Of a stretch of 64,000 bases of DNA, positions 3,276-21,147 are shown piece by piece. The notes beneath the pieces are model-generated. The model searched no databases. It was not told where the DNA came from and saw nothing but the letters and a program-made list of their open reading frames with translations. This DNA is from an uncultured Bacteroidota bacterium (lineage in GTDB: Bacteria; Bacteroidota; Bacteroidia; Flavobacteriales; Flavobacteriaceae): positions 1-64,000 of the forward strand of contig CACHVZ010000005.1 of the NCBI GenBank assembly GCA_902583445.1. Reading direction: 5' to 3'. A program made the position numbers and the translations under genes. Numbering within the stretch: the stretch's first letter is position 1; each line of letters starts with the position of its first letter.

Positions 3276-5963
3276 ATGAAACAATTTATATTAAATTTAT
3301 TATTTATAGTTCCTTTACTTTCTTATTCTCAAACAACTGTTAAGGGTAGGGTATTAGATTCAAACAATTTTCCTTTACCAGGCGCTACTGTTATTGCTGA
3401 AAATTCAAACGAAATTGCAGTAACTGATTTCGATGGATATTACAGTCTTTTTATTTCAGGTAGTGATAATGTGACAGTATCGTATGTTGGTTTTGAAACT
3501 TCATCAAAAGTTATCAATGAGTCTGATGTAAATGTTACATTTATCTTAGCACCTAATGTCAACGAACTATTAGAAGTTATTGTTTCCGGTTTTCAAGGAG
3601 GAACTATTAAGTCTTTAAACAAGCAAAGAAATGATATAAATGTTACAAATATTGTTTCTGCTGATCAAGTTGGTAAGTTTCCTGATGCAAATATTGGAGA
3701 TGCTTTAAAGAGAATACCAGGTATAAGTGTGCAATCAGATCAAGGAGAGGCAAGAGCGATTAACATTCGTGGTTTTGGTGCTGCATTAAACTCAGTAACT
3801 ATAAATGGTGAAAGAATTCCATCTGCTGAGGGAGATAACAGAAATGTTCAATTGGACTTAATTCCATCAGACATGATTCAAGCTATTGAAGTTAGCAAGA
3901 CTCTTACCCCTGATATGGAGGCAGATGCTATAGGTGGTTCAGTTAATCTTGTAACTAGGTCTAAGCCAGAAGAGTTTAGGTTATCAACTACAATCTCAGG
4001 TGGTTCAAGCCCAATTAGAGATGATTCTTACAATACTCAATTTTCGTTTGTACTTGCTGATAAATTTAGTGATAGATTATCTTATTCACTTAGTGGTTCT
4101 AGAAACATTAATGATTACGGTTCTGATAATATTGAGTTTGAGTGGAATGAATCTGGAGATGATTATCAAATTAATGAAATGGATATGAGAATATACGATG
4201 TAAAAAGACAAAGAGAAAGTATATCCCTTAATTTAGATTATCAAATTAACAGTAATAACAGTATTTATGTTCAGTCAATATATAACGAAAGACATGATTG
4301 GGAAAATAGGTGGAGACTGAGAATGGATGATCCAGGTGATGAGGGTGCTGGAACATATAGGGTAAGAAAATTATCAAAGGGAGGTATTGGAAACGACACT
4401 AATGATAATACTAGGCTTGAACTACAAAAAATGTGGAATATTGCTGTAGGGGGTGATCATACATTTGGTAAGTTAGCTGTAAATTGGAAAATTTCACAAT
4501 CCGAGGCATCAGAGGAAAGACCTGACGAGAGATATATTAGATTTGATCAAAAAGGTGTTAATGTTGACTTTGATATAACAAATCCGAGATTTCCAAGACC
4601 AGTATTTGCAGATGGTGATTGGGATACGCCTGCACTAGCAAAAATAAAAGAGGCTACTTTTGAAAATAAATATACTGAAGAATTAAATACATCTTATAAA
4701 ATTGACTTTACATTACCTTATAATGTAAATGATAAACTTAAATTTGGATTTAAGTATCAGGAAAAAGAAAAAGAACGTTTCAATGACTTTTATGAATATG
4801 ACATTGAGAGTGATTTGGGTATAGAGACTATGGATCAGGTTCCATTGAACAACCCAACTCCAAGAAACTTTATTCCAGGACCACAGTATAATTCAGGCTT
4901 ATTTCCAACTGTTGAATATTTAGGGAGCTTAACAATGAATGAAAATAATTCTGAGCCAGTTTTTGAAGAATTTGCAGCTGCAAATTATATGGCTGAAGAA
5001 ACGGTTACATCAGCTTACATTATGGCAGTGGATAAACTTTCAGATAATACAACAATAATATTAGGTGCCAGACTTGAGGCAACGGATATTAACTATATTG
5101 GAGCATCTTTTGACGTAGAAACAGGTGAGTCTTATGATGATATTGAGCTTAGAGAAGGTTCTAACGATTATGTAAATATACTTCCTAATCTAACGATTCA
5201 GACAAAGCTTTCAGACAATTTCATATTAAATGGAGCATATACTCAGTCTCTTGCCAGACCAGGTTATTATGCACTAACACCATATGAAGAAATTAATTCA
5301 GACGATATGGAAATTTCAGTAGGAAATCCAGATTTAGAGGCAACTGTATCAAATAATTTAGATTTTATGGCTGAATATTACTTCGGTCCTTTAGGCTTAT
5401 TCTCAGCTGGATTTTTCTATAAAAATATAGATAACTGGCTTTATGAATTTACTGATAACAATTATACATATAATGGAGAGACAGGTTATGATTATTCACA
5501 AGTTAGAAATGGTAGTAATGCTGAAGTTACAGGTTTTGAATTCGGTCTTCAAACATCTCTAACGGATAATGTAACTCTATATTCAAATTATACATATACA
5601 GATTCAAAGACTGACGGCATAGAAGGTAGAAGTGATGCTCCACTAGTTGGTGCTGTAAAGAATATGTTTAATGGTTCATTAGCTTATGAAAGTGATAAAC
5701 TCTTTATAAGAGCATCATTAAACTATGCTGATGCATCTGCTGATGAGCTAGGTAGTGAGTCATGGGAAGACAGATATTATGATGATCAGGTATTTGTTGA
5801 TTTAAATGCTTCATATTCATTATCTCCAACGGTTAAATTATTTACTGAGTTTAAAAATTTAACTAATCAGCCGTTAAGGTATTATCAAGGAATACAAAGT
5901 AGAACAATGCAACTTGAGTATTACAGTTATAACTGGAATATTGGTCTAAAAATTGATCTATAA
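3276..5963 (+). CDS. TonB-dependent receptor linked to phytase
   Basis: Outer-membrane active transporter of 895 residues. The chosen ATG gives a clean signal peptide (MKQFILNLLFIVPLLSYSQ). Residues about 20-105 are a carboxypeptidase D regulatory-like domain (VKGRVLDSNNFPLPGATV), then a plug domain with GDALKRIPGISVQ, RGFGAALNSVTINGERIPS and DADAIGGSVNLVT-like segments, then a 22-strand-type barrel ending in GLKIDL. The plug wording matches the Xanthomonas/Caulobacter-type receptor subfamily (TIGR01782) rather than SusC. The next gene is a beta-propeller phytase, so the likely cargo is phytate, inositol phosphates or a linked metal; this is inference from context. An upstream TTG could add 6 codons but lies in the promoter box. 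Confidence 0.92.
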   Translation: MKQFILNLLFIVPLLSYSQTTVKGRVLDSNNFPLPGATVIAENSNEIAVTDFDGYYSLFISGSDNVTVSYVGFETSSKVINESDVNVTFILAPNVNELLEVIVSGFQGGTIKSLNKQRNDINVTNIVSADQVGKFPDANIGDALKRIPGISVQSDQGEARAINIRGFGAALNSVTINGERIPSAEGDNRNVQLDLIPSDMIQAIEVSKTLTPDMEADAIGGSVNLVTRSKPEEFRLSTTISGGSSPIRDDSYNTQFSFVLADKFSDRLSYSLSGSRNINDYGSDNIEFEWNESGDDYQINEMDMRIYDVKRQRESISLNLDYQINSNNSIYVQSIYNERHDWENRWRLRMDDPGDEGAGTYRVRKLSKGGIGNDTNDNTRLELQKMWNIAVGGDHTFGKLAVNWKISQSEASEERPDERYIRFDQKGVNVDFDITNPRFPRPVFADGDWDTPALAKIKEATFENKYTEELNTSYKIDFTLPYNVNDKLKFGFKYQEKEKERFNDFYEYDIESDLGIETMDQVPLNNPTPRNFIPGPQYNSGLFPTVEYLGSLTMNENNSEPVFEEFAAANYMAEETVTSAYIMAVDKLSDNTTIILGARLEATDINYIGASFDVETGESYDDIELREGSNDYVNILPNLTIQTKLSDNFILNGAYTQSLARPGYYALTPYEEINSDDMEISVGNPDLEATVSNNLDFMAEYYFGPLGLFSAGFFYKNIDNWLYEFTDNNYTYNGETGYDYSQVRNGSNAEVTGFEFGLQTSLTDNVTLYSNYTYTDSKTDGIEGRSDAPLVGAVKNMFNGSLAYESDKLFIRASLNYADASADELGSESWEDRYYDDQVFVDLNASYSLSPTVKLFTEFKNLTNQPLRYYQGIQSRTMQLEYYSYNWNIGLKIDL

Positions 5964-8032: not shown

Positions 8033-8149
8033 TTACCTGCAACTCCAGTGAGTGCCATCACATATTCCATAGGGGTTGGATGTTTGTCCGCAAGAACATT
8101 CAACATTTACATAAATGTTAGCGTTTGCATCTAAATCTGAATAGTTCAT
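8033..8149 (-). CDS. Miniature CDGSH-type iron-sulfur protein (38 aa)
   Basis: A 38-codon frame with ATG at 8149 and TAA at 8035-8033. Its core CSCGQTSNPYGICDGTH carries the 3-Cys/1-His ligand set of CDGSH [2Fe-2S] proteins (canonical C-x-C-x2-[ST]-x3-P-x-C-D-G-[STA]-H), with one extra residue between the Pro and the third Cys. The same spaced pattern C-x-C-G-x-T-x2-P-x-G-x-C-D-G-[ST]-H recurs in the 26-residue protein at 19929-20009. The N-terminal 17 residues are acidic and polar; no signal peptide. It lies 45 nt upstream of the DUF115-like gene on the same strand's 5' side and could be co-transcribed with it. Reality rests on the motif alone; expression is not shown. Confidence 0.72.
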   Translation of the reverse strand: MNYSDLDANANIYVNVECSCGQTSNPYGICDGTHWSCR

Positions 8150-18906: not shown

Positions 18907-19101
18907 TTAAACAAAATAAAAGAGTTTGTCAATGCTAACTTCAAGTGAAGAAGAAATTTTCAATGCAACATCAAGTCCTGGAATGAATTTATTTTTTTCA
19001 ATTGAAATAATAGTCTGCCTGCTTACACCTGTCTTTGAAGCTAAATCTTCTTGTGTTAAGTTTCTACCTTTTCTATAATCTTTTACCCTATTAACTAGCA
19101 T
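18907..19101 (-). CDS. Small XRE-family transcriptional regulator
   Basis: 64-residue Cro/C1-type helix-turn-helix protein with no other domain. The HTH spans about residues 13-35 (NLTQEDLASKTGVSRQTIISIEKNK), followed by FIPGLDVALKISSSLEVSIDKLF, the usual fourth and fifth helices. It belongs to the minimal XRE group (like YgzD/YozG-type proteins) that often represses its own operon. Its ATG is flanked by an operator array of GTAAA-N6-TTTAC repeats, the first copy ending 1 nt short of the start codon, and a TATATTTG promoter box sits within the array. It is divergent from the YceI/mini-CDGSH/FMN reductase operon and may control both directions. Confidence 0.9.
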   Translation of the reverse strand: MLVNRVKDYRKGRNLTQEDLASKTGVSRQTIISIEKNKFIPGLDVALKISSSLEVSIDKLFYFV

Positions 19102-19315: not shown

Positions 19316-19927
19316 ATGAAAAAATTATTCACTTTTTTAATGTTAATCATACTAGCTTCATGTAATACTAATCCCAACCAAGCTAGTACACAGCAAGCAC
19401 AGGGTGTTGCAACGGTTGACAATATTTATAATGTAGAGACTGCACAGAGCCAAATTACTTGGACAGGTAGAGAAGTATCTACAAGCTATCACTATGGAAC
19501 ACTAGACTTTGTTTCTGGTAATTTTGAGATTTCTAACGGTGCAATTGTGAATGGCGAGTTTATAGTTGATATGACTTCAATAAATAATCAGGATATGGAA
19601 GGAGATAGTAAAGCAAGATTAGAAGGTCATTTAAAATCAGATGACTTTTTTTCTGTAGAATCATATCCTACAGCGTCTATATCAATTAACAGTTCTGAAT
19701 TAATATCAGATGGTAAATGGAATGTCTCAGCAGATTTATCTATCAAAGGTTTTACTCACCCAGTAAATTTTGAGATGATAAGCTCAGAGGATGGTTGGTC
19801 TGCAAATCTTGTATTTGATAGGTCAAAATACGATGTAAGATTTAGATCAGGATCGTTTTTTGAAAATCTTGGCGATAAACTTATATATGATGATATCGAA
19901 TTATCTATTAACTTAACAACCTTATAA
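19316..19927 (+). CDS. YceI-family lipoprotein
   Basis: 203 residues. The lipoprotein signal MKKLFTFLMLIILASC places the lipidated Cys at 16. After a Q/A/T-rich linker, residues about 37-203 form the YceI lipocalin-like barrel: VETAQSQITWTGREV, HYGTLDFVSGNFEISNG, FIVDMTSINNQD, LKSDDFFSVESYPTASI and LSIKGFTHPVNFEM. YceI proteins bind isoprenoid chains such as polyprenyl-quinones; here the protein would be in the periplasm or outer membrane. It is the first gene of an operon with the 26-residue CDGSH peptide (1-nt gap) and the FMN reductase. About 100 bp separate it from the XRE operator array. Confidence 0.93.
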   Translation: MKKLFTFLMLIILASCNTNPNQASTQQAQGVATVDNIYNVETAQSQITWTGREVSTSYHYGTLDFVSGNFEISNGAIVNGEFIVDMTSINNQDMEGDSKARLEGHLKSDDFFSVESYPTASISINSSELISDGKWNVSADLSIKGFTHPVNFEMISSEDGWSANLVFDRSKYDVRFRSGSFFENLGDKLIYDDIELSINLTTL

Positions 19928-19928
19928 T

Positions 19929-20009
19929 ATGAATTACAGACCTCAATGTGGTTGTGGTAACACAAATGACCCAAATGGTTATTGTGATGGTTCACACAAC
20001 ACAAAATAA
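19929..20009 (+). CDS. Miniature CDGSH-type iron-sulfur peptide (26 aa)
   Basis: A 26-codon gene with ATG at 19929, one base after the YceI stop, and a TAA whose last A is the first base of the next gene's ATG (TAATG). Its core CGCGNTNDPNGYCDGSH holds the three Cys and one His that ligate the [2Fe-2S] cluster in CDGSH/mitoNEET proteins, with one extra residue before the third Cys compared with the canonical motif. Only six residues precede and three follow the core, so it is essentially a bare cluster-binding loop; canonical single-motif CDGSH proteins are two to three times longer and dimerise. The sealed operon position strongly supports a real gene. It may assemble as an oligomer or bind a partner protein. 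Confidence 0.85.
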   Translation: MNYRPQCGCGNTNDPNGYCDGSHNTK

Positions 20010-20545
20010 TGAGCAAAATTCTAGCTTTTGGTGCATCGTCATCAAATAACTCAATGAATAAAAAACTTGCCTCTTTTGTAGCGAAAAAAATTGCTCCTCA
20101 AGAGGCAGTTCTTATTGATTTAAATGACTATGAAATGCCAATTTATAGTGATGACAGAAAAAAAGCTGATGGTATCCCTGAAAAAGCATATGAATTTAAA
20201 AACCTTATTAAAGCTTCAGACGGAATAGTTATATCACTTGCAGAACATAACGGATCATATACTGCTGCATTTAAAAATATTTATGATTGGGTATCTGTAA
20301 TTGAAGAAATTGTGTGGAATTACAAACCCATTCTACTTCTTTCAGCATCAAATGGATCAAGAGGAGGTAAATCAGTTATGAGTGCTGCCTTATTAAGATT
20401 TTCTATACAGAGTAAATTTGAGATACCAAACTTTAGCTTGCCAAAATTTGAAGAAAATTTTTCTGACAAAGAAGGTATAACAAATAAAAAACTAATGGGC
20501 TTATTAGAAGAGCAAATTAAAATCTTCTTGCAACAAATTAATTAA
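20009..20545 (+). CDS. NADPH-dependent FMN reductase family protein
   Basis: 178-residue flavodoxin-like protein (PF03358). The FMN-phosphate loop is FGASSSNNSMNKKLASF (about 6-22), followed by the flavin-ring segment SLAEHNGSYTAAFKNIYDWVS near residue 75-95 and the LLSASNGSRGGKSVM block. Such enzymes reduce FMN, quinones, azo compounds or metals with NAD(P)H. Its ATG overlaps the stop of the mini-CDGSH gene by one base, implying translational coupling and a joint redox role. It could also feed reduced flavin to the SsuD-like monooxygenase at 8571, although the two are not linked. Its 3' end overlaps the convergent methyltransferase gene by 8 nt. Confidence 0.92.
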   Translation: MSKILAFGASSSNNSMNKKLASFVAKKIAPQEAVLIDLNDYEMPIYSDDRKKADGIPEKAYEFKNLIKASDGIVISLAEHNGSYTAAFKNIYDWVSVIEEIVWNYKPILLLSASNGSRGGKSVMSAALLRFSIQSKFEIPNFSLPKFEENFSDKEGITNKKLMGLLEEQIKIFLQQIN

Positions 20546-21147
20546 TACCGGTAACAACCAAGGTTCCTCCCCATTCTTTATCTTGTCCATTTCGCCAAGA
20601 CTTAACATCTTTTAAACCTGCCTTTTCAAAAAAACCTTTCCATTCTTTTTCAGAATGAAGCTTCATAATAGTAATGCAACACTCTTGAGGCCATGAATGA
20701 GAAGCTTTATTTTCAAGATAAAAATCTATACCCATAATAAGTCTACCCTCTTTTTTTATCCAGTTTTTTTGTTATATGATCTATAAGAAGCGCAGGATCT
20801 TCAAAATAATAGAATACCTCCATGGAATGAACAATATCAACTTTTTCTAAAGGAATCCAATTAAGTAAATCTTCACAATAATATTGATTCTTATTATCAA
20901 GTCTCTTTGCCTTGTTTATCATATTTGAAGAACCATCGACACCTATTGCAAGAGAACATTTAGCATCATCTGAAAGATGTCTTATTACCCAACCATTTCC
21001 ACATCCAGCATCAATAAAAGAATACTCTGACAAACCCTTACATGCAAAATCAACCATTTTCATTACTGAGTTATAATGATTTCTTTCCATACCCTCATCT
21101 TTTCCATTTTGAGCCCACTCACTAAAAACATTTATTGGCGTATTCAT
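20538..21147 (-). pseudogene. SAM-dependent methyltransferase split by a frameshift at an A7 run
   Basis: The first part (ATG 21147 to TAG 20743) encodes 134 residues with SAM motif I FIDAGCGNGWVIRHL, motif II region IGVDGSSNMINKAK and DIVHSMEVFYYFEDP. The remainder continues in another frame from about 20757 to 20538. Removing one A from the A7 run at 20751-20757 joins them as LDKKEGRLIMGIDFYLEN, the expected 'GG.li...f' strand of the fold, giving about 202 residues. The defect is thus a one-base insertion at a homopolymer: a real inactivation, an assembly error, or a site for transcriptional slippage. Last gene of a minus-strand operon after the histidine phosphatase (1-nt overlap). Confidence 0.8.

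Follow-up and report, generated by a model that had tools for sequence, protein, structure and literature searches.

Comparison of sequences, rather than expression, identifies the reading frame at positions 19929-20009, in DNA of an uncultured member of the Flavobacteriaceae, as a protein-coding microgene under purifying selection. Its product, a peptide of 26 residues (MNYRPQCGCGNTNDPNGYCDGSHNTK) referred to here as the mini, displays the arrangement of three cysteines and one histidine typical of CDGSH iron-sulfur domains with little else. It belongs to a family whose core, judging from the sequences collected, occurs as a free peptide, fused to YceI proteins and fused to PSP1 (RicT-like) proteins. 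No published description of such a peptide was found in the titles and abstract beginnings of the open-licence literature and, as far as that literature shows, the family has not been described before.

The mini gene and its locus

The window, i.e. the whole stretch of 64,000 nucleotides that was analysed (G+C content 31.6%), comes from a genome of 1.02 Mb that is 73% complete and distributed over 27 contigs. The features that matter here are the following:

19316..19927, + strand, YceI family protein, 203 aa (Pfam PF04264, 1.8e-25, above the curated cut-off)
19929..20009, + strand, mini-CDGSH gene, 26 aa, candidate ligands C7, C9, C19 and H23
20009..20545, + strand, NADPH-dependent FMN reductase, 178 aa (Pfam PF03358, 8.4e-29, above the curated cut-off)
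8033..8149, - strand, second mini-CDGSH-like frame, 38 aa, core CSCGQTSNPYGICDGTH, tail WSCR

The ATG of the mini (19929-19931) lies 1 nt past the end of the YceI gene (19927), and the A of a TAATG sequence is common to its TAA stop (20007-20009) and to the reductase ATG that begins at 20009. The first-pass annotation of this DNA had reported just such a frame, separated from YceI by one nucleotide and overlapping the reductase gene by one base. The PDB relatives of the window YceI, which carries a lipobox-like LASC recognized by eye, include polyisoprenoid-binding proteins, and those of the reductase are azoreductases, YieF, and quinone and chromate reductases. The regulator gene nearest YceI encodes a 64-aa HTH_3 protein (18907-19101, Pfam), and there is no HxlR gene beside the window mini. 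A methyltransferase gene (20538-21147, - strand) is read as two frames here, near a T run, and as a single frame of 202 aa in two other loci (L008 and L062).

The second frame, which the first-pass annotation did not mention, represents a different and longer subfamily and adjoins neither YceI nor a reductase gene. Close copies of it were found in 4 of the 25 genomes of the genus, including the source genome.

A coding sequence under selection

The expectation for frames of the form CxC(6-11)C[DN]G[STA]H was calculated over the six frames of the 64 kb, with amino acid frequencies drawn from dinucleotide-model sequence and positions treated as independent. It amounts to 6.5e-5 frames in the window, against two that are present, so that chance does not account for the frame.

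The loci of the genus were collected through YceI and not through the motif, by searching YceI in 60 relatives that include all 25 available genomes of the genus. A YceI orthologue was found in 19 of these 25, and the mini follows it in all 18 loci resolved by script as well as in a nineteenth (L267, genome G930). The synteny check proposed at the outset thus finds the mini behind YceI in every one of the 19 genus genomes that have YceI. The mini ATG lies 1 nt after the YceI stop in 17 of the 18 resolved loci, and the TAATG junction with the reductase gene is present in 16. Within the genus, the 17 distinct minis have a pN/pS of 0.241, compared with 0.295 in YceI and 0.274 in the reductase. 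The dN/dS near 1 that had been named in advance as an argument against a genuine gene was therefore not encountered, and the minimal CDGSH-like frame is, on the sequence evidence, real and selected. Among the 88 distinct bacterial cores, which were selected by motif, pN/pS is 0.141, 69% of the differences fall at third codon positions, and the information per base reaches 1.66, 1.77 and 0.81 bits at codon positions 1, 2 and 3, respectively; starting 67 nt downstream of the first Cys codon, in a region that lies mainly beyond the stop, it falls to 0.24 bits. All these ratios are pairwise averages calculated without a tree and motif-found sets lean to conservation, so that the genus set found through YceI is the fair one.

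Because the start and stop of the mini are so closely tied to the adjoining genes, one might suspect an inert peptide, with the stretch serving solely as RNA or to couple translation. This is very improbable, as codon positions 1 and 2 are conserved, the module survives in fusions and it is also present without any coupled gene. A purely RNA element was rejected, since the conservation of amino acids contradicts it.

A repeat profile search detected the mini in 20 of the 25 genus genomes, namely the 19 with YceI and G920; completeness is 54-84% in the five genomes where it was not detected. The mini of G920 (L312) stands alone between other genes, and its first Cys codon contains an ambiguous base; YceI was not found in this genome, and neither YceI nor a reductase gene lies within 4.3 kb of the mini. 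The idea that the mini and YceI had been lost jointly in six genomes of the genus was rejected once this search had found the G920 mini without YceI; it rested on a search made with the other mini subfamily, which also missed the copy of G924.

Relationship to canonical CDGSH proteins

The core of the family can be written C-x-C-G-x-[TS]-x2-P-x-G-[YF]-C-D-G-[ST]-H, where P and Y/F are usual but not invariant. The 3Cys-1His set, as CxC and CDG[S/T/A]H, is present in all 17 distinct genus copies found through YceI; the detector required CxC and CDGxH, yet every resolved genus locus gave a match. The distinct cores, 88 from bacteria and 22 from viruses, carry this set by the manner of their collection. 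In their ligands, in the spacing within CxC and CxxxH and in the S/T after CxCxx, the minis agree with the CISD/NEET proteins (zf-CDGSH, PF09360), to which they also show profile similarity. Indeed, hhalign joins the mini to canonical CDGSH with 97.4% probability and a one-residue gap, and a common origin of the two is therefore likely as far as such profiles can tell.

The two forms differ in spacing. Between CxC and the third Cys there are nine residues in 113 frames of at most 60 aa from stop to stop (14 + 13 + 62 + 24, from overlapping searches), which pool into 94 distinct core-and-tail sequences. An eight-residue spacer was found in 29 cases, all in frames of 61 aa or more, and the canonical spacing CxCx2(S/T)x3PxCDG in no frame of 60 aa or less, although the searches were seeded with nine-spacer minis and short eight-spacer frames could escape them. 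Nine viral counts of a seven-residue spacer are a parsing artefact, CxCGC having been read from its second Cys. In the accessible text of two papers, published CDGSH domains have the eight-residue spacer (PMC5859297, PMC3174974); the second also gives 53 residues for a type 3 CDGSH protein and reports a beta-sandwich for inter- or intramolecular dimerisation in the CDGSH structures then known (PMC3174974). Stand-alone minis have 25-38 residues from the chosen ATG (85-row alignment), and the 26 residues of the window copy leave no room for the beta-sandwich, the N-strand or the lid-proline motif, all of which are absent.

Neither Pfam nor NCBIfam matches the window mini; in particular, PF09360 does not match it, nor anything in its own genome at E 10, and matches 32 of the 85 minis weakly (best E 0.005). 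A profile search of the PDB gave only E 0.39 and 0.74, to the CDGSH-containing chains 3tbm and 3tbn. AlphaFold returned a weak model of a 30-residue member (mean pLDDT 68.4, pTM 0.24), for which Foldseek found no match in the PDB. When the 85 minis were run against NCBIfam, only four members gave a weak match, with a model of an allose kinase at a best E of 0.086, which is put down to chance. With PHROGs and six typed minis, the single outcome was that the window copy matched a family of HNH endonucleases at E 0.19.

By spacing, Pfam and fold, the mini is thus not filed as a CISD member. Nor is it, on this comparison, a fragment of a canonical CDGSH protein, because its spacer has nine residues instead of eight and its length could not accommodate the beta-sandwich; no longer CDGSH protein of which it might be a piece was found, eight-spacer cores being confined to frames of at least 61 aa. 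The frame is admittedly very short and escapes Pfam and NCBIfam in its window form, as might be expected if it had arisen by chance or were what decay had left of a longer CDGSH protein. Such an origin is hardly credible: the mini retains its place within the genus with a pN/pS of 0.24, the chance expectation is minute, and the eight-spacer core was seen in none of the frames of 60 aa or less. Both versions of it, chance and decay, were rejected on the chance expectation, the selection data and the spacer data. The first-pass annotation had spoken of a bare cluster loop as a new minimal form; the minimal form stands, but the loop exceeds the canonical motif by one residue, which makes it a separate form rather than the bare canonical loop.

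Distribution

Twenty-five of 199 genomes of the family matched at E 0.1. Thirteen of them carry 14 nine-spacer minis, one of which is fused in frame to YceI (L015); among the other 12, nine encode canonical CDGSH proteins and three encode neither kind. At the level of the order, 30 of 395 genomes matched and 29 of them have the nine-spacer core, one of these (L151) in a YceI fusion whose module is interrupted by an in-frame stop. At the level of the phylum, eight of 395 genomes matched, the nine-spacer core being present in the window genome only and canonical CDGSH proteins in the other seven. Relatives are further encoded by 193 stretches of GTDB-representative contigs and by 186 stretches of uncultivated phages in IMG/VR, of which the best 80 in each case were examined. 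According to their titles, the best 80 of the 193 come from Bacteroidetes, mostly uncultured Flavobacteriales with some Polaribacter, and the isolate names suggest that most are marine. One copy (L128) belongs to a cultured strain, Polaribacter septentrionalilitoris ANORD1. The length of the gene is at or below the usual cut-off of gene callers, and it has therefore probably been missed in many genomes and phages.

Neighbours and fusion partners in bacteria

Neighbours were counted for 81 motif-found frames from 80 genome-contig loci (the best 80 of 193), three of which have less than 300 nt upstream. YceI lies directly upstream of the mini or is fused to it in 55 of the 81 frames, and a reductase gene directly downstream in 19. 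Other associations are a divergent HxlR gene (14/81) and the order MarR-YceI-mini-TrpE-like (17/81), the gene downstream of the mini being presumably TrpE-like; 14 of the 81 frames have no scored neighbour. In 38 of 55 loci, 1-5 nt separate the YceI stop from the start codon of the mini, and in 13 of 20 the mini stop and the reductase start codon have an A in common. Loci without a reductase gene behind the mini show a terminator-like hairpin there in 28 of 59 cases, compared with 8.4 (sd 2.5) in mononucleotide shuffles. In one locus (L121), two different minis lie in tandem (3980-4069 and 4237-4320) behind a single YceI gene.

The YceI-FMN reductase gene pair described by the first-pass annotation is confirmed around the window mini, but YceI is the stronger link. 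Relatives without the frame, which had been named in advance as counting against the proposal, are not found among YceI loci of the genus (19/19 have the mini), but 27 of the 30 closest reductase homologues in the family lack it, the mini being upstream of only three, the window included.

Single examples of the neighbours were identified by Pfam as HxlR, MarR, DoxX, DoxX_2, pirin, YceI and PSP1. Among 25 distinct HxlR neighbours, 23 have a Cys within their first 15 residues; of the remaining two, one frame is apparently cut at its start and one is extended. According to the accessible text of PMC6943732, an N-terminal Cys allows YodB, CatR and HypR to sense quinones, diamide and HOCl. These DUF24/HxlR redox regulons of Bacillus invite comparison: some mini loci combine an N-terminal-Cys HxlR with YceI, pirin or DoxX, and the window reductase resembles azo/quinone reductases. 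The comparison has its limits: HxlR and a reductase share a fetched locus only once among the 80 genome-contig loci (L065; best 80 of 193) and the window locus has no HxlR. To our knowledge, the YodB, CatR and HypR regulons of Bacillus comprise no CDGSH microprotein. Since HxlR and the reductase co-occur once and the window has an HTH_3 regulator, a combined stress operon is a synthesis across loci.

In ten YceI fusions, the module follows the protein start and precedes the hydrophobic core of the signal peptide. Seven have no Met between the module and the hydrophobic core, so the module is part of the YceI protein and should face the cytoplasm. The others have a Met after the module (L064 and L152) or at the edge of the hydrophobic stretch (L015), and YceI could therefore also start there. 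In five further loci (L163 and L167-L170), a PSP1-type protein of some 380-395 aa (Pfam run on one) carries the module at its C-terminal end; we take these proteins to be RicT-like. Three genomes (G377, G474 and G482) each have one shorter frame and one 390-aa frame of this kind. The PSP1 (RicT-like) family is linked to iron-sulfur clusters.

Phage relatives

Among the viral loci (best 80 of 186), 39 have frames of at most 60 aa, with 22 distinct cores, and 41 have frames of 96-128 aa. Pfam or PHROGs identified three of the ten upstream genes tested as holin genes (L189, L203 and L255), and in these IMG/VR loci the minis overlap or directly follow the holin genes. In twelve viral loci (best 80 of 186), the mini is preceded by a protein of 134-136 aa with two hydrophobic segments, the tested examples of which were not named holin by Pfam or PHROGs. 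Other named neighbours are a chaperonin (L181), PhoH (L180) and an exonuclease (L205), and L229 has a tape-measure-like protein and an XkdF protease. The mini precedes the chaperonin gene in L181 (tested) and L204 (similar sequence). A tblastn search of INPHARED phages gave no match at E 1, which the short query and the size of the collection may explain. The phage copies lie beside unrelated genes, and this points to a more general role.

Proposed function

The metal, the fold and the partners of the mini can be proposed as follows. The peptide would stay in the cytoplasm, because it has no signal and because its module lies before the signal peptide in YceI fusions. Its 3Cys-1His set would bind a metal centre, most likely a [2Fe-2S] cluster, and in redox or electrophile defence the peptide may be a small relay situated at the membrane face. 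NAD(P)H would supply electrons to the FMN reductase, which would hand them to the cluster of the mini, and the final acceptor would be a carrier, quinone or lipid, such as YceI binds. We hold tentatively, as the most likely reading though at somewhat less than an even chance, that the mini is such a cytoplasmic metal peptide working with YceI and, in some lineages, with the flavin reductase.

The strongest outside support for a relay comes by analogy from mitoNEET: in the accessible text of PMC9490426, flavin reductase and FMN reduce its CDGSH cluster in vitro, and the electrons then go to O2 or ubiquinone. The proposed relay mirrors this flavin reductase-FMN-mitoNEET-ubiquinone chain, but mitoNEET is a longer, membrane-anchored dimer, whereas the partner genes of the mini are bacterial and known from sequence alone. 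Several points count against this reading: the nine-residue spacer, the absent beta-sandwich and lid-proline strand, and the weak AlphaFold model. To these are added the pooling of the stress-operon picture across loci, the 14 of 81 frames without a scored neighbour, the lone mini of G920, the mini in only 3 of 30 closest reductase homologues, and the phage copies beside unrelated genes.

Some of these points would suit a zinc-binding knuckle, structural or serving as a metal buffer, with no redox role. The spacer departs from that of every canonical CDGSH protein found here, the beta-sandwich is missing, and natural zinc knuckles are about as large as the 17-residue C-x-C-x9-C-x3-H unit. The minis nevertheless retain the CDGSH pentapeptide, the CxC pair and the S/T of [2Fe-2S] domains, and several gene contexts are those of redox chemistry; a zinc knuckle is thus rather unlikely, although a real contender. 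Equally doubtful is a mini that binds [2Fe-2S] as a cluster donor, an iron carrier or a redox sensor for its partners, and not as an electron relay. Its occurrence as the C-terminal tail of PSP1 (RicT-like) proteins, alone in some genomes and in unrelated phage proteins suits a portable cluster carrier or sensor, but YceI is the partner most often linked to the mini, and 19 of the 81 frames are followed by a flavin reductase gene.

Significance for the family

Returning to the [2Fe-2S] relay, a broader proposal, a little more doubtful still, is that these peptides of 25-38 residues are [2Fe-2S] microproteins, among the smallest natural iron-sulfur proteins, used as a portable redox plug-in without a beta-sandwich: beside YceI and reductases in Flavobacteriales, in the n-region of YceI signal peptides, as tails of RicT-like proteins and, in phages, by holin and chaperonin genes. 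If the cluster is held, the known size of a CDGSH-type iron-sulfur protein would be lowered, and the cluster loop would work without the dimerisation domain of the known CDGSH structures. The mini may then rank among the smallest natural metal-cluster proteins and would offer a simple model of the minimum protein that an iron-sulfur cluster needs. Furthermore, its repeated pairing and fusion with YceI make the function of YceI testable.
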